Source: Asterias amurensis (taxonomy: Eukaryota; Echinodermata; Asteroidea; Forcipulatida; Asteriidae). From it: 64,000 nt of DNA. The notes under the pieces were generated by a model. The model ran no database searches. It had not been told where the DNA came from and saw only the letters and a list, made by a program, of their open reading frames with translations. Made by a program: the position numbers and the translations under genes. The stretch spans positions 14,506,501 through 14,570,500 of the forward strand of contig NC_092650.1 of assembly GCF_032118995.1 (NCBI RefSeq), written 5' to 3'. Of the stretch, positions 5,566-56,611 are shown in pieces; position 1 is the stretch's first letter, and every line of letters begins with the position of its first letter.

Positions 5566-6836
5566 TCAAGTGTGTACAATACAATGTACATCATTCCAAA
5601 CCACAGTGGGTTGTAATATAATACATGATGTACCATCGAATAGATACACTAAACCTGTATTGAATGCTCAGAGAGACAATGGGAGCACTTGAGTTAAAAC
5701 AAAACTGAATTTAATACATTACCCTGATATTACCTGTAAAAAGTCCGCCCAAAGAGGCGATGGAAAAGTGTTCATATTTAGAGTATTGTGCAAACAAGTT
5801 TCAATTGGTGTACTTTAAAAATTTCTCTTCCAAGCCGCTACAGAATCCAGGGCCTACAGCCAACAGCAAATTTATCGTCAAGATCACAAAGCACAGACTG
5901 AGTAATTGTACCCAATGCATTTATTTTATTTCATAGAATTTATTGATTAAATAAAATGTTCACAGATTCGAAGCAGTGCACAGATGTTTTCAAGGTTACA
6001 CAAATAAAACACAATGTAAACAATTATGTTTATTCTATTAATTAAAGATGAAGTTTGTCTAACAATTATTTTTTACAAAACATGTACCCCAAACAGTTTA
6101 GGCAGTATGCCTAGAAGAAAAAGAAAAACACTGTCACACACTCTTTTTTTTCAGTTGAGTTGGAAAAATATCATATTATTCTGAGGATGCCTCATTCAAC
6201 ATACATGTACGTGTGCCTTTCACACTGGTTATTCTGTACTGTAACATGTTCAGTAGCCTACAGTGTCCATGGACAGTGTGGGTAAATTAATCTCAAGGCT
6301 GCTGATCAGTGATTGCAAAAGAAAACATCCCGTCTACAAAAAAATTAATCAGTTTGTGACATGCGTCATGATATTTACACAACGTTTTTGACCTTGGGGG
6401 GGGTGGAGGGGTTGATATGATAATTATTCATTATCTAAGCCACATAGGTTTCTTCCAAGACCAAAACAACTGTTCTAAAATTGTAGACCATTCAATTGAT
6501 TTCATGCCCTGCTTTTAATACAACAGAGATCAGAGCCTAATTTCAAAGCCTACGTACATGTATGAGCAAAGTAACTGCTACATAAGCACAGGTAAATCTT
6601 GCTTAATACACATGTAGATACTGGTTTCCAGCCAAAATTCAATGAAGTTGACATTGTTGCTAAAGTTCTACTGTTTCCCCACTAATTTGGCCCAGATAAA
6701 AGACCAATTAAGAAGAAAAAATCCTAAGCACAGAATTGCAAAGCAGAAACAGGTTACCAGCCAAACTTGCTGTGCTAAGCAGTTTTTTCTGCTTAACAGC
6801 TTTAAGAAACTATAGGCCCTGTGCTTGCAAAGCCCT

Positions 6837-7269
6837 TTAAAGGGTACATGTACTTTTTCCTAACAAAAAACACAATGCCAACAGTATACATTAAACTTAC
6901 ACAGTTTAAAGATTTATATGATAGTAGAAAGCTTCCCTTGAAATTCTACTTACTGAGGTGCTGTAGTCTTTGAGAAATGAGTAAAAGTAATAATATTCGT
7001 CTCAGTTTTAGCATGTAAAAACGTATAAACCAGTTATGCTATAGTTTTGGTATAATATCATTTAACTGGTTAAGAGGATTTTACATGCTAAAATAATTTT
7101 GGTCTCATGAGACCAAAACTTGTTTGTGAATTGTTTTACTCATTTCTCAAAAACTACACAACCTTAGTTAGTAATATTTGAAGGGAAGCTTTCCACTATC
7201 ATTATCTTCAAACCCTGTAAGTTTTATGTGAATCTGTGGCCATTTTGAAAAAGTACCTGAATCCTTTAA
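6837..7269. mobile_element. TTAA-flanked foldback MITE, family G
   Basis: Starts TTAAAGGGTACATGTACTTT and ends with CCTTTAA after a long imperfect inverted repeat. Shared inner motifs are GAAAGCTTCCCTTGAA and TTTGAGAAATGAGTAAA, with their complements on the right arm. A second, tighter copy is at 7711-8050. Confidence 0.65.
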
Positions 7270-7710
7270 AGCGTCCACGAGTGAGAAGCACCATGATACC
7301 ATGGGATGGGGCCAGATGGTCAAGAACACCATTGTGTCATACCCATAATAATAATATTTAATATTTAAGATTATAATAATAATATGGCATTGTGTAAATT
7401 CAGACAAAGGAAACCATGGAAACGCAGGCCAGTTATTTATGTTGCCCTGGATTTAACAACATGTGTTTCTGGAAGGGTTTATTTTAACTAGAAAGATGAT
7501 GATAAGGAACTTTTTTTTCAATACCAACTCTCCCCACAAAGGTTTCTGTCAGAAAAAAAGTGGATAGCATTTGATGTCCCCCACAATCACTTTTCCTACC
7601 ATGTATGATAATTGTCAGCAAATTAAATCATCTCCAAATTTATTGAAAATCTTTGTCAATGTTTTCACTAAAATTATACAAAATTTGATGAACTTTTTAC
7701 ATATATATGG

Positions 7711-50200: not shown

Positions 50201-53200
50201 ATTGAATTTTAAATCAAAATTTTGGGGTCAAATCGGCCAAAAATCTGACAAAGCATCTTTAAGGGGAAACACTCCATTTAAACATTTTGAAACACTTTGT
50301 GACTTACAAGGAAGTGCATAGAGAAAAAAAAACATAACTTAATTTAAATGGATCTATGTTTGTCTATTACATCACTACTTCAAAAGTACTTTGAGGAAAT
50401 AAAAAAAAAGTAAATAGATCGCCTGAAGCATTTCATAGTTTGTATAATTCCCAGGATGAGAAATTTCAGATATCTGTTTTTAGATTTTTTTTTTTATCAA
50501 AGCACATGTTCATGTGTATCTGCTTGACAGTGTCAGTTATTTTCTTTAGCTAAAAAGCGATTCTGCTCCTTGATTTGACTTCTCTAGTTCTGAGAATACT
50601 GCTTCCAAAAAGTTTCTTAGAATTTCTATTAAATATGGCATGTCCTTGACTCAAGGCTGTTGGCATAGTGTGCCCCGGCCTGATCGATGCAGCACGATTC
50701 GGCAGTCTCTGCATGCAGTGCATACACGAACATTGTATACATTGTATAGTACAGTACATTGTACAGCGAGAACAGTATAGCGAAGTCGTGAGTACGGTCG
50801 TGTCTTTCTACTTTCAACCTCGCACACGTGGCTCAAGCTACTTAGAAAGTACTCATGTAGAGTACGTGTACCGTGCAGATGGTACGCATGTACACAATAA
50901 TAATAATAACAATAATAACACTTTAAATGCGCACATATCCACCCTGCTGGGTGTTCGAGGCGCAGTAAAAAACAAAAACAAAACAAAAACAAAACAAAAA
51001 CAAAACAAAACACAACACAAAGAAAAACAGACACAACAAAATTAGTCATTGAAAAACCTGTGACATAAGATAAGTTTTTAGAAGAGACTTGAATTTTGCG
51101 GTACAAAGACAAGATCGAAGATTAAGTGGTAGAGAGTTCCAGATGCGTGGCGCGGCTGAAGAAAAAGACCTGTCACCCCATGAGTGTCGAGACTTGGGTT
51201 CAATTAGGAGAAGCACAGAACTTGATCGTAGATTCCTTGATGGAGTGTAAACTTGAAGCAGTTCAGAAATATAGTGGGGAGCCTTGCCATTAAGAGCTTT
51301 GTGGACAATGAGCATCAGCTTGAAGATGATTCGTTGAGAGATAGGGAGCCAGTGTAGTTGTTTCAGAATGGGGGTGATAGAACAGGATTTTCTAGACAGT
51401 GTCACAATGCGGGCAGCAGTATTTTGGAGCCGTTGAAGTCGGGAAATCTGGTTGTTTGGAAGACTGTAGAGAAGAGCATTGCCGTTGTCAAGACAAGAAG
51501 TAACAAATGCGTGAATGACCTTTTCAGTGGCACTTTTGCAGTATGTGTACATACATGTACGCTGTACACGTACATGTAATATGCATGCTTTGTGTTATGT
51601 ACATGGGGGCATGTGCGCTGGCGGAATTCAGTGGGGACTAGGATTTATGCAGGTCGCGGCTGGCAGGAGCGCCTTGATCAAGGCTAGGCATGTGTTGGCT
51701 GATTGGTCTTGTTCACTAGACCCAAGCTCTAGTCCCAACTAAATTGTGCTTTCCAAAACAAGGTTACCAGCTAAACTACCATATGTACCAAGTACAATTT
51801 GTGACTCACTGGTATACTGCTCATTTCTATATTTTAAGCAATATTTCCCCATAAAGTAGCTCTATAAGTGTACACTGCGTAGTATATTTCCAAAGAAATT
51901 ACTTTTTCCTGTAAGTTTGCAATGGGTTAGAAGTGTTCAAAGGTCAAATAAATTTTCACTGAAATTTCTAGTATACTGGAAAGGGGCTCATGTACACTGT
52001 AGCATTTTTAAGACCAAACCTCTTCCAGTTCCCCAAGTAGAAAAGGAATTTTATTTCCTAGAAAAAAAAAGGAACAAAAAATGCAGAGAAAAATGCCTTA
52101 CCTGTGTAACCATACGGTGTTGTTGGAGAGTGCGTTTACCGTCAAACTCCTCTGATTCAATGGTAACTTCATACATAGCTCCACAGCCCCCTGAGGAAGA
52201 AACAAACAGTGTGAGACAACATTCCACGGTCCAATGATAGAGCTGCTTTTAAGAAGCAGAAAACGTTGCTTAAAGACAGTGGACACTATTGGTAAATGTC
52301 CAATAGTCTTCACAGTTGGTGTATTTCAGATACATTTACTTCATGTCAACATCAAGTGTATCTCAACATATGCATAACATAAAATTTGAGCTCAATCGGT
52401 CATCAAAGTTGCAATATAATATTGAAAGAAAAAAAAACGCCCTTGTCACACGACTCAAAAGAATCAAAGTTTATAATTTCAACGTTTCTGTAAATTAGGT
52501 CCAACAAAATCATTTCCAATTTTAGAAACAACTTTATGAAGACCAATTTGCAGTTCCCACCTTGCCAATTAGAATGAGTTAAACCCCATTTCCAAAAGAT
52601 CACATACCTGACACGTCTTGTACTTGGACTGCCACTGCCTTAGGAAACTTATCCCGAAGAATACTCTTGAGTTTTTGTTCACCTTGAGTGAGCACCGTGC
52701 TATCAGATAAGCCCCTCCATCGTTGAGGGAGCTGGATAAAAAGAAACAAAGTTACACTTACAGGCAGTCCAAAGGATTTTGTTAGAAAATGTTCAATAAC
52801 AACCTGTGTTTTATTTGTTTGTGTTTGTCGCATTGGAAGAGGAAGGCTGAAAGCTAGATGGACTGCCACCATCACTTATTAGGTTTTTAAAAGAAGTACA
52901 TGTAGTATTCAAGTGCTAACGCGCATGAGTTATCGACAACAGCTCTGGACAGGGATGCAGAGGGTTCCGTTTGAAGGGATTTTGGTTCAACCACAGAGCA
53001 ACAGATGCCCTAATTGGCTCAAAGGCAGTGGACACTATTGGTAATTGTTAAGGACTAGCCTTCACAGTTGGTGTGTCTCAACATATGCATAAAATAACTA
53101 ACCTGTGAAAATTTGAGCTCAATCGGTCATCAAAGTTGCGAGATAATAATGAAAGAAAACACCCTTGTCACACCCTTGAAGTTGTGTGTGTTTAGATGGT

Positions 53201-56200
53201 TGATTTCGAGACCTCAAGTTCTAAACTCGAGGTCTCGAAATCAAATTCGTGGAAAATTACTTCTTTCTCGAAAACTATGGCACTTCAGAGGGAGCCGTTT
53301 CTCACAATGTTTTATACCATCAACTTCTCCCCATTACTTATCACCAAGAAAGGTTTTATGCCCAATTTTTTTTGGAGTAATTACCAATAGTGTCCTCTGC
53401 CTTTAATTTAGTAATTATTTTGTAATTTGTAATAACAGTTTTGTTTACTATTAGTTACTTTAGTAACTTTGGCTACTCATTTATGCATAAGCGGGAGAAT
53501 TTTTTTTATAGCAAAAATTAAATTTATTACTTATTAGCCAATACTTGGGCTACTGTACTGAGGAATATAGGCCCTATCCAGCGACTTTCTTTTATTTGGA
53601 AACAATTCAAAAACAAAACATCACTGACCCGAGCAAATATAAATAGCAATACTCTGAGCTCTGAGGACGAGGTTGGAGATTGCATGTTGTACATTTAATA
53701 TACACGTAATATGGTTATTACACTTTCTCTACTGGGCCAACTCCAACCAGCCAACAGAGGGCGCTGTTTGAACATACATTTGGATAACATGATGGTCTTG
53801 AAAGTTGAAATCCTTTTTCCAACAGACAAAACACTAGCCAGAATAGATTGATGAAGGAAATAAAAGTAATACATTTATAATCAATAATATGAATCTTACA
53901 CATGTATTTAACATGTTTAATGCTTTATTTATTTATGCTCAAACGCTGTTTTAAAACAATCCAGGTCATTGTGTCGGCAGTTGTCGTCAGTAGTTGTCGG
54001 CTTTTTAAAAAGAATGTTTAGTTTAGTTCGAACACTACTTCTAAACTTCTAGAAACTATAAGGCTCCCCCGTGAAGGAGCCTTATTATACAAATATTGAG
54101 TGGCTCAGAGTGGAATGGGAGGAATATTATCGCTCGGTAAAATTTGGACTGTTCCATTTCACGTGGCAAATTTTTATTGTGAAATTACACCCGTTTCTCT
54201 TTGAGTCGGCCTGTTGGATTCAACAGTCACGATGTGTGTTCTACAGCTATTTTGAGACACGCAGAAGCCGAATGCTAGTAATTTTACTAATAATAATGCC
54301 TTGCAGTAACACTGCTGCCTTACCAAAAGACGTGCGCACGCAGTGATGTTTTTACTCAGCTTTTTCGCTTCATCCGAAAAGTACCGTTGCACGCTGGCAG
54401 CATGCAATCGAAAGGCCAATGGTACTTTTCGGATGGAACGAAAAAGCACGGTGAGCGACTCAGCGTGCAATGGTAATTTTACTTGCTATCACGTGACGGA
54501 CAATCCTCCAATCAAATGATGGCAAGGATCTGCTTGAGTGTTATATAAGAGTTTCTACTCTAAGGTTTCTAGAACTAGAAGTATTCCTATTCGAACGAAT
54601 ACCGGACACTTCGGCACCTTGCAAAGTCGGCACCTGCAAAGTCGGCACCTTGTAAACTCGGCACCATGCACACTCGGCACCCACTCGGCACCAAGCATGT
54701 CGGCACCAAACAAACTCGGCAGTGCCGAGTTTGTTTCGGCACCGGCCTTTTTTTGACTAACAAACTCGGCACCAAGCGAAAAATTAATATCACCTCGAAG
54801 AGTCAAGTGGTTACCAATAGACTATACGTGCGTGTACTTACACAATAAAAAATGGTTTGGTAGTTTTAATAGTAGCTTTGTAAACAATGTAAAATCACTA
54901 ATTCTATGGTGATGAAAATTCCGAACTATCGAGAACATTAATTTGGGCCCCGGAAGTTTATCGTCCGGCCCGCATGTGCCGTGGTTTAGTCAACAAGTAG
55001 GCCGCATGTCGGTGAAAGTGCGGTGCCATTTTCTTATGATTTTGGCTCTGATTATATTTAATAAGGGTTTGTTTAGTTAGGTTAATAATTTTCAATGGAT
55101 TTTTGCCTCTTAACAGAGCGTGATTTAAAGGCACTGGCTGAATAATTTCCCGAGGGCACCGTTTTGTGCGTGATATGGATGGCACGCACACGCCTGATCG
55201 TTAGTGGTGTGCACACTCCTTCCAGTGCAATTGTTTTAGTTTGTTTTTTACGATAATCAAAAATCATATTCCAATAATATTTGCAAGGTTTTATAACAGA
55301 ATCAAGCTTTTTATGGGACTATGATCATGATGATGGTGGGACTGATATAATAAACACCACACAGTGTGAAAATCGAACTTTTTCAACTAGGTGCCGAGTT
55401 TGTATTTGTACATGTGCCGAGTTTGTGGGTGCCGAGTTTGCAAGGTGCCGAGGATGTGGGTGCCGAGTTTGCAAGGTGCCAACTTTGCAGGTGCCGAGTT
55501 TGCAAGGTGCCGAAGTGACCGGTACCCATTCGAAAACGAAACAGGTCAACTCGTACCCAAGTCAACTCGTACCCAAGTCAACTCGTACCCAAAATATTAT
55601 ACCCAAGTCAACTCGTACCCAAGTCAACTCGTACCCAAGTCAACTCGTATCCAAGTCAACTCGTATCCAGGTCAACTCGTACCCAAGTCAACTCGTACCG
55701 TATATAACGTACGTTGTATGCCGGTACGGAGAATCCGTGCGGCGTGATTTTATAAGCTACTCACTTTTATTAAAAATAATTTCTTCTCACGAATTTCGTT
55801 TTTAATAATGCTAGATGTTCATCTCTCTTCTGCTTTTTTTTTTCTTGATTCTTTTTTTTTTCGGGGGGAAGGGGGGTTTGATTTCTTTAAGATGTTTTAC
55901 GGTAGTATTCTTCTAACTAATGTTTTAAACAGTCCAGGCTGTAATTTCGTTTTTAATGTTTGGTGCTTATAAAGACATATGAGACATAAAAAGGGTTAAT
56001 TTTTGTTTAACGGTTCTTCTCTTTATTGCTTAAAAACAAACTCATTCAATATAAAAACATACAATGTATAGTACGCAAACGTTCCATGTTTTTCTTGTTA
56101 AAGGGTTCCCATTAGAAAATATCATGATAAAAATTCATTCTCATTCATCTGCGTATGTTCTGATTATCTTTTTACATGTATCTGCAACATGAAAAAAAGA

Positions 56201-56611
56201 AATCATTACAACAATGAATAAATAAATGTATGATTTACATAACAAAAATTAAATAAACCACAATATTTATCAGTCAGTACGACTACGAGTTGAAACTCCA
56301 ATATTTTGTAAAAATTTATTTGGGTACGAGTTGACTTGGGTACGAGTTGACTCGGGTACGAGTTGACTTGGGTACGAGTTGACTTGGGTACGAGTTGACT
56401 TGAGTACGAGATGACTTGGGTACGAGTTGACTTAGGTACGAGTTGACTTGGGTACGAGTTGACTTGGGTACGAGATGACCCAAACCGTCCCAAAGAAAAT
56501 TCTAACCCAACAAAACGTTCGTAAAAGTTTGTCAGTCACTGTCACTGTCAAGTGTCAGATAAGTCATGGCAGGATACCTACCAGGCGACTGCTAAAAATT
56601 CTCCGAAGCAT
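44258..56611 (-). CDS. BOLA3: BolA family member 3, mitochondrial, four exons
   Basis: Exons on the minus strand are 56611-56582 (MLRRIFSSRL), 52731-52608, 52190-52102 and 44341-44258. Donors are GTAGGT, GTATGT and GTAAGG; acceptors are all CAG. Phases 0, 1 and 0 match and the total is 327 nt (108 aa; human about 107). Conserved blocks: EQKLKSILRDKFPKAVAVQV, SGGCGAMYEVTIESEEF, KRTLQQHRMVTQAL and VKQMHGLRIVTAVPSK. BOLA3 works with GLRX5 and NFU1 to deliver [4Fe-4S] clusters to mitochondrial enzymes such as lipoate synthase. Cys54 and His91 sit at the known cluster-ligand positions of BOLA3. The basic, Arg-rich first 16 residues suit a matrix-targeting peptide. Exon 1 has only 30 coding bases, and the call rests on its phase, donor and targeting character. 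Introns are about 3.85 kb, 0.42 kb and 7.76 kb and are full of repeats. A short upstream ATG frame (56713-56678) may be a uORF. Confidence 0.9.
45044..46174. mobile_element. 1.13-kb foldback element with mirrored 82-codon ORFs
   Basis: The left end CTAGGGTCATTCCGTGTCAA is mirrored by TTGACACGGAATGACCCGCT. The arms are about 500 bp each and meet around a short AT-rich loop at 45553-45647, which itself has TACATGTACATATACATACC. GCTAG flanks both ends. Each arm has an 82-codon frame reading toward the ends: 45462-45214 on minus and 45745-45993 on plus. Both begin MEKTYKGKF, end CQRSGAF and differ at 10 residues. It lies in BOLA3 intron 3. Confidence 0.7.
46440..46752. repeat. Foldback/tandem repeat with GTTATCGTTCTCG motifs
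   Basis: AACGAGAACGATAGCAATTA at the left is mirrored by GTTATCGTTCTCGTTCTCG near 46590. CTCCNCGCAGAATACGC occurs twice (46530, 46650). The right end TGTGTGACTGGGCCTTA resembles a MITE terminus. No coding sense. Confidence 0.45.
46911..47281. mobile_element. TTAA-type foldback MITE, family C
   Basis: TTAAAGCCATTATACACTTT to AAGTGTATAATGGCTTTA, tip CTCGCTATCAAGAATTGATA. BOLA3 intron 3. Confidence 0.7.
47450..47915. mobile_element. Family B foldback, diverged
   Basis: TTAAAGGCATGGCTACACCT at the left and CCAATAGTGTCCTGTGCCTT at the right, TTAA at both ends. The centre is expanded (ATTGAGTGAGAAATTACCTC and similar twice). Confidence 0.6.
48248..48576. repeat. Two head-to-head family D repeats
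   Basis: 48248-48406 (forward) and 48398-48576 (reverse) overlap at a shared CAGGCCTG junction, and another D end (CCCTTTCAAAAACTGAGG) follows to 48613. The pair makes a 330-bp inverted repeat. Confidence 0.6.
48615..49087. mobile_element. Two family P foldback copies
   Basis: 48615-48800 is a diverged copy ending TTTGAAATTGGGCCCTG. 48836-49087 is a clearer palindrome from GGGGCCAATTTCATAGAGCT to CTATGAAATTGGGCCCTGG. Confidence 0.6.
49100..49843. mobile_element. Two adjacent family B copies and a family P end
   Basis: 49100-49412 is a diverged B copy; 49414-49804 is a fuller one (TTTAAAGGCAGTGGCACTAA to TCCAGTGTCTTTAAG) with tip ACCTCAGAATTAGATTTTGA. A family P end (GCAGCTCTATAAAATTGGG) follows at 49820-49840. 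Confidence 0.6.
49844..50892. other. BOLA3 intron 3, no recognised feature
   Basis: AT-rich unique-looking sequence with a run of TACATTGTA-type motifs near 50734-50765. No exon or family member recognised. Confidence 0.35.
50893..51585 (-). mobile_element. 5'-truncated LINE (CR1-group) reverse transcriptase tail
   Basis: The minus-strand frame from 51552 to 51046 encodes 168 aa without a stop. It includes LQRLQNTAARIVT, LHWLPISQRIIFKLMLIVHK, ALNGKAPHYISELL, GDRSFSSAAPRIWNSLPLNL and FKSLLKTYL. This is the conserved C-terminal part after the reverse transcriptase fingers and palm in CR1-group and related non-LTR elements. The 3' side has a TTTTG-repeat-rich stretch (50970-51015) and an ATTATTATTG tail (50898-50925). 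The 5' part is absent. The frame is intact, so insertion was fairly recent. BOLA3 intron 3, same strand as the gene. Confidence 0.75.
51586..52101. other. BOLA3 intron 3, right end
   Basis: Contains a weak family P relic at about 51738-51868 (AAGGTTACCAGCTAAAC, TAAGCAATATTTCC, AGTAGCTCTATAAGTG). No exon. Confidence 0.35.
52270..52460. repeat. Half of a family B MITE in BOLA3 intron 2
   Basis: TTAAAGACAGTGGACACTAT through TGAGCTCAATCGGTCATCAA to CTTGTCACACGACT; the other half is missing. It makes up nearly half of the 417-bp intron. Confidence 0.6.
53021..53405. mobile_element. TTAA-type foldback MITE, family B
   Basis: AAAGGCAGTGGACACTATTG to GTGTCCTCTGCCTTTAA, tip ACCTCAAGTTCTAAACTCGA. BOLA3 intron 1. 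Confidence 0.75.
54358..54455. repeat. Small palindrome (CATCCGAAAAGTACC arms)
   Basis: GCTTTTTCGCTTCATCCGAA with AAGTACCGTTGC is mirrored by AATGGTACTTTTCGGATGGA and ACGAAAAAGC around a GCATGCAATCG loop. BOLA3 intron 1. Confidence 0.55.
54584..55541. mobile_element. Foldback with tandem-repeat arms, unit ~16 bp (TU-like, copy 1)
   Basis: Outer border TTCGAACGAATACCGGACAC is mirrored by GTGACCGGTACCCATTCGAA. The arms are arrays of TCGGCACCTTGCAAAC-type units: plus orientation at about 54608-54780, complement (GGTGCCGAGTTTGCAA) at 55390-55520. The ~600-bp middle is AT-rich with no coding sense. Arms made of short direct repeats are described for foldback elements and sea-urchin TU elements. 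In BOLA3 intron 1. Confidence 0.65.
55542..56490. mobile_element. Foldback with tandem-repeat arms, 16-bp unit (TU-like, copy 2)
   Basis: Left array: about nine units of AGTCAACTCGTACCCA at 55544-55700. Right array: the reverse complement TGGGTACGAGTTGACT at about 56328-56475, also about nine units. Units are nearly identical within and between arms. The ~630-bp middle includes T- and G-runs (55836-55880) and no ORF of interest. Copy 2 starts directly where copy 1 ends. Confidence 0.65.

Follow-up and report, generated by a model that had tools for sequence, protein, structure and literature searches.

Two adjacent foldback elements, here called A and B, lie in a 64,000-nucleotide stretch of Asterias amurensis DNA (the window; assembly GCF_032118995.1, contig NC_092650.1, forward-strand positions 14,506,501 to 14,570,500). 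In window coordinates, the elements and their parts are as follows.

54589..54596, no strand: left target site duplication (TSD) of A (ATTCGAAC), 7/8 identical to the right copy (locus L001)
54597..55527, + strand: element A, 931 bp, delimited by genome and middle searches and by reading of its ends
54597..54606, + strand: left terminal motif of A, GAATACC + GGA
54611..54721, + strand: left arm of A, 15-16 bp units of TCGGCACCTTGCAAAC, with inner partial units to ~54775
54776..55390, + strand: middle of A, limits approximate, repeated elsewhere in the genome
55391..55513, - strand: right arm of A, the A units inverted
55518..55527, - strand: right terminal motif of A, read inward GGGTACC + GGT
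55528..55535, no strand: right TSD of A (ATTCGAAA)
55537..56487, + strand: element B, ~951 bp, with an altered right terminus
55537..55546, + strand: left terminal motif of B, CGAAACA + GGT
55545..55699, + strand: left arm of B, 9.8 units of GTCAACTCGTACCCAA, from Tandem Repeats Finder (TRF)
55700..56319, + strand: middle of B, limits approximate, repeated elsewhere in the genome
56320..56479, - strand: right arm of B, 10.0 units inverted, from TRF
56478..56487, - strand: altered right terminus of B, CGGTTTG where intact copies have GAATTCG

The 16-bp arrays of A were found by TRF at 54611-54721 and, built of the same units in the opposite orientation with a period of 15/31 bp, at 55414-55513; those of B occupied 55545-55699 (9.8 copies) and, again in opposite orientation, 56320-56479 (10.0 copies, 93% matches). 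The arms pair over 82 nt with 89% complementarity in A and over ~100 nt with 94% complementarity in B, the distance between paired arms being 600-800 bp. The oppositely oriented arrays and complementary arms bear out a preliminary description of two adjacent foldbacks with mirrored ~16-bp arrays. That description had further taken them for adjoining copies, and they do stand side by side, but 9 bp separate A (54597-55527) from B (55537-56487), and they belong to two separate families whose middles did not match each other (best E value 0.39). Read inward, the ends of A are GAATACC-GGA-CACTTCGGCACC on the left and GGGTACC-GGT-CACTTCGGCACC on the right, and the left end of B is CGAAACA-GGT-CAACTCGTACCC. 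The right TSD of A overlaps the 8 bp that precede B (TTCGAAAA, 55529-55536), and a TSD of the window copy of B would agree, by eye, at only 5/8 positions. Two of the longest open frames of the A middle, taken from the copies at loci L003 and L012, had no Pfam match, and no long frame in the B middle was recognised by eye as a gene.

Both elements are dispersed through the genome, which was searched as 491.5 Mb in 23 contigs. The search with the whole stretch scored 40 of 667 candidates and returned at least 146 matching pieces, and the places matched by A and by B differed. Searched alone, the A middle gave 63 matching stretches, the best other copy being 94% identical over the full query, and the B middle gave 66, the best other copy being 92% identical over nearly the full query. 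A pattern for the A terminus (at most two mismatches) matched 298 places (166 + 132), compared with 6 (4 + 2) for the reversed pattern. A pattern for the B right end (at most one mismatch) matched 117 places (69 and 48), some of which are inner arm units (for example, C2:1716090), compared with none (0 + 0) for the reversed control. Neither are the arrays confined to this locus nor are they, genome-wide, ordinary satellites running in one orientation, although a 38-unit one-way array does occur at locus L067. A single composite element spanning both arrays was ruled out because A and B were found apart, each with TSDs of its own. At L067 (878-1483), 37.9 units of B type all run the same way next to a D-type unit (GGGGGCGACTTTG), seemingly an arm grown into a small satellite; at L012, a copy of A is truncated by GGGTTA-type repeats at a distance of ~15 kb from the contig end (C9); and at L071 (706-1088), a mirrored pair of 16-bp arrays (ACAATGTCGCCCCCTA type) starts within ~100 bp of a 161-bp A element that itself has a perfect TSD.

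The flanks of the dispersed copies carry the evidence for mobility. Copies were reduced to a non-redundant set on the basis of 28 flanking bases. The pair counts omit pairs of ends more than 2600 bp apart (L069), copies in which a single end was recognisable, and the window's own B copy with its altered right end; copies without a clear TSD were kept in the totals. For A, 34 end pairs were obtained from 33 loci (L081, with two left ends and one right end, enters twice, and both members of the L016/L017 segmental duplication were kept). An exact 8-bp TSD was present in 22 of the 34 and one with at most one mismatch in 26, whereas 500 shuffles of the pairs never gave an exact match and gave at most one pair with one mismatch. 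Exact duplications of 9 bp and 7 bp were seen once and not at all, respectively. For B, 17 of the 22 complete copies had an exact 8-bp TSD and 19 had one with at most one mismatch, compared with 0 in 1000 shuffles. When the element and one TSD were removed from each of 45 copies, 14 had an empty-site paralogue aligning across the join; approximately seven of these (L054, L057, L060, L061, L074, L075, and L080) were clean, and several of the rest were short or gapped. The empty site of L088 cannot be relied on, since an A end lies in the flank. At L049, B lies inside a frame matching the Pfam reverse transcriptase (RVT_1, E 5.4e-10), and the flanks joined without B read FIDFRKAFDTIHRDKMM, with one frame continuing across the join. 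Inverted ends with tandem short repeats and a constant 8-bp TSD at dispersed copies define A and B as DNA transposons of the foldback type. Given the many copies elsewhere and the clean 8-bp TSDs, we conclude that both are real transposons, non-autonomous and belonging to a broadly known type.

Individual insertions had features of their own. The A copy at L074 (1-2301) lies within a 30-bp satellite array, and its TSD (GTATGGTT) is part of the satellite unit. At L086 (1395-2000, minus strand), a B copy with the exact TSD TTTTTAGG stands at the edge of an open frame with a Pfam DUF3987 match (E 2.4e-6) and, by eye, a Walker-A-like motif. L082 (546-1233) has two A ends that point the same way and whose flanking 8-mers are reverse complements of each other (AGTAAAAC and GTTTTACT), an arrangement such as a small inversion through the element would leave.

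The ends of these elements are composite: an outer 7-bp motif, not the same at the two ends, is followed by a GGA or GGT step and then by the tandem ~16-bp units. The asymmetry was nearly invariant: 31 of the 34 A pairs combine a GAA end with a GGG end (the other three being one-letter variants), and all 22 B copies have one end of each kind. By eye, a third family, C, whose unit is 17 bp long (CCGTCGAGTTGTCCGAA), was recognised from two copies in the flanks of L028 and L055, their 8-bp TSDs being ACTAGACT and ATGCAGTT, respectively; its step, also read by eye, is AGA or GGA. In fixed register, the termini of the three families coincide at 13-14 of 22 positions, a level that shuffles reached in 0.015-0.12% of cases. 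A generic pattern, GAATBYVRGWCANYTCG, composed from the B and C ends with A excluded, matched 190 places (97 and 93) compared with 17 (8 and 9) when reversed. The 21 matches for which letters were available comprised seven of B or its variants, six of C, four of GAATGCCAGTCA(A/T)CTCG, two of GAATGTCGGTCACTTCG, and two single sequences, so that the pattern picks up two further repeated end types besides B and C. From the agreement of the ends and the excess of generic matches, it follows that the end scheme is conserved while the units differ. Taken alone, A and B units aligned no better than shuffles (best alignment 9/16, P = 0.24), a P of 0.016 being obtained only in the register fixed by the termini, and homology by best rotation was dropped as not significant. 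No hybrid element, with an A end, the end of another family, and a single TSD, was confirmed. The earlier proposal of one mobile architecture with differing units is upheld by the dispersed copies, the 8-bp TSDs, the empty sites, and the occurrence of the terminal scheme in family C. Its suggestion that the units are rapidly replaced fits the shared ends with different arms, although the A and B units by themselves lend it no significant likeness.

Several described elements resemble A and B. Sea-urchin TU elements carry short direct repeats in the outer part of their long inverted repeats and have an 8-bp TSD, features in which A and B may resemble them. A literature search on starfish foldbacks and TU elements returned nothing useful beyond the mosquito element Muta1, a statement that extends to that search alone. 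In Tm1 of root-knot nematodes, of the Phantom subclass of Mutator, the outer 7-bp motifs are likewise asymmetric and lead through a 3-bp GGA step into ~14-bp tandem units (13-15 bp), the number of which varies; non-autonomous copies resemble miniature inverted-repeat transposable elements, and TSDs of 8-10 bp, most commonly 9, accompany 45 of 53 elements (PMC3169594). Tm1 differs in its units and motifs, in the prevailing TSD length (9 rather than 8 bp), and in having a known transposase copy. Muta1 of Aedes aegypti, which is able to move in yeast, has a 10-bp terminal motif, 12-bp subterminal repeats, 3-4 bp spacers, and a TSD of 8 or 9 bp; short subterminal repeats are carried by 10 of 12 families of Aedes Mutator-like elements (MULEs) with long terminal inverted repeats (TIRs) (PMC5225508). 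Muta1 has been grouped with Phantom, and MULE TSDs are 8-11 bp (PMC6446971). A and B share with Muta1 and the Aedes MULEs the terminal motif with subterminal repeats, a TSD in the 8 or 9 bp range, and the many non-autonomous derivatives, whereas the sequences differ and activity has been demonstrated for Muta1. Galileo also has long, internally repetitive inverted ends, in which the repeats hold transposase binding sites, but its TIRs exceed 1 kb and its transposase is of the THAP/P type (PMC3688188). Tetris, a foldback of Drosophila virilis, has internal tandem repeats in its TIRs, an 8-10 bp TSD, and no autonomous copy found, but its repeat unit is ~220 bp (PMC4079207).

A and B are likely to be cut-and-paste DNA transposons of a non-autonomous kind, bounded by composite inverted ends and moved by a transposase supplied in trans; less surely, this enzyme would be Mutator-like, of the Phantom/Muta/Tm1 type. 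An autonomous relative would provide the transposase, which may bind the tandem units, pair the two ends, and cut at the outer motif; insertion would occur with an 8-bp stagger, and slippage or unequal exchange would shift the number of units. A Mutator-like enzyme is suggested because that group is published with such an end layout and with 8-10 bp TSDs. By structure, the elements would be placed with the Mutator/Phantom foldbacks, their 8-bp TSD falling within the 8-11 bp range and their ends combining an asymmetric motif, the GGA step, and tandem units. Proximity of ends to transposase genes was compared for 200 listed ends (100 A-type and 100 generic), nearly all on contigs C1-C9, the end lists for the A, B, and generic patterns comprising the first 100 places each. 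Two inward-facing listed ends lie within 20 kb of a transposase domain, one near a MULE (C9:13391887) and the other near a P-superfamily gene (C4:7198403). The former, one of 12 MULE domain matches in the genome, has an open frame of 658 aa with an inward-facing generic terminus 1.3 kb away among the ends listed. For the seven MULE matches on C1-C9, 0.008 listed ends would be expected within 1.5 kb, or ~0.03 over four transposase families.

A number of observations weigh against this reading. Among the loci read, none combined both such ends with a transposase; by chance, 9% of generic matches (17/190) would be expected, and the candidate C9 terminus is a pattern match of this kind. Six of the seven MULE matches on C1-C9 had no listed inward-facing end within 60 kb, and the end lists cover the contigs of the other five matches in the genome hardly or not at all. 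The TSDs are almost strictly 8 bp, compared with the more frequent 9 bp of the MULEs cited, and several copies (L072, L020, L013, and L073 for A; L004, L043, and L087 for B) lack a clear TSD. The P-superfamily gene near an A end counts on the same side.

In the first 88 loci, no transposase was recognised by eye among open frames of at least 130 aa, a few of which were scanned against Pfam (seven frames in all). A 6.3-kb A-ended candidate at L069 (TSD GTAYAAAA, 7/8) was rejected as an autonomous copy; it is a long interspersed nuclear element whose long frames match RVT_1 (E 4e-14) and Exo_endo_phos (E 9e-9).

The transposase is unlikely to come from some other superfamily that makes 8-bp TSDs, whether hAT, Merlin, KDZ, or one undescribed. 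An 8-bp TSD does not by itself decide the superfamily, and the genome has 18 hAT and 6 Merlin domain matches, but no listed inward-facing end lay within 20 kb of any of them (10 of the 18 and 4 of the 6 are on C1-C9, and the lists are partial). Termini of hAT elements begin with CAG, a start that the termini of these elements lack. A search for KDZ found nothing, with its control equally silent.

It is also rather improbable that a P-superfamily (THAP) transposase moves the elements, as in the Drosophila foldback-like element Galileo. P elements make 8-bp TSDs, 23 P domain matches were found in the genome, and at L089 an A-type end with its arm lies 5.1 kb from the P transposase at C4:7198403 (THAP E 9.6e-12, RNaseH_N 1.8e-42); the tandem TIR repeats of Galileo are, moreover, bound by its THAP domain (PMC3688188). 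Against this, the alignment of the P copies on C5 and C13 with L089 starts at ~1225-1238, beyond the A piece, and that of the C17 copy starts later still (40 of 5632 candidates were scored, so that a weaker match in the left part could be missed). Positions 814-1227 of L089 weakly resemble the middle of family C, with two short matches that are collinear (E 8e-6 and 2e-4, against 0.42 for the best shuffle), and no A-type right end was present up to 9801, where the sequence read ends. Only one of the nine P matches on C1-C9 is near a listed end, 0.037 being expected within 5.5 kb. Because P homology starts past the A piece and 814-1227 resembles the C middle, we treat that piece as a neighbour; L089 was not upheld as a P-type autonomous copy, having no A-type right end to 9801 and a homology that stops before the A piece. 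The P-superfamily gene itself, with its THAP exon (L089:1740-8443, on C4), is interrupted by a 1.34-kb repeat (~6122-7464) of which more than 30 copies at 95% identity or above were among the matches listed. That the arrays are ordinary minisatellites inverted by accident has next to no probability: the 38-unit one-way array at L067 indicates that arms can grow like satellites, but the TSD statistics refute this explanation, and the empty sites, fixed ends, and ~300 A-type terminus matches also speak against it.

Elements standing edge to edge were met outside the window as well. At L088, a complete B flanked on either side by GTTCATAC is directly followed by an A end; at L025, a complete A flanked on either side by AACCAGTA is directly followed by a B-like end; and at L028 C adjoins A with overlapping TSDs; at L033 and L065, A or B is close to a 19-bp array. 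In the flanks of 131 distinct ends, 12 array clusters (from six loci, some counted from both sides or twice) start within 100 bp, compared with 0-4 per further 100 bp, and five distinct A elements among the 100 A ends listed have a generic end within 10 kb. Loci were chosen in part deliberately (L069-L088 from listed end positions, and L070 and L088 for the closeness of A and B ends), and the neighbour-pair counts are biased because of this hand-picking; since the window and L088 were selected for closeness, the clustering is a lead rather than a test. A doubtful but possible extension is that a single transposon clade keeps an end code (GAAT.., GGW, CANYTCG) but exchanges its arm units time and again, so producing many families within a genome, and that its members insert preferentially at each other's edge; an array-bound element would draw a relative into the same 8-bp target.

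Other repeats were observed in the window. An imperfect 31-bp hairpin with 90% complementarity lies at 54359-54447, just upstream of A. A short repeat of ~370 bp with inverted ends (AAAGGCAGTGGACACTATTGGTAATT at 53021) has at least seven near-full copies with at least 80% identity to the copy in L089 (53021-53398, 59862-60245, 49434-49803, 18680-19041, 25006-25364, 28010-28376, and 23424-23804).

With well-bounded foldback families, clean TSDs, and Mutator/Phantom-like ends, finding what moves A and B should be a short reading task. Their shared end motifs and different units offer a natural series for the joint change of transposases and binding sites, and the same families are suited to asking how arms seed satellite arrays.

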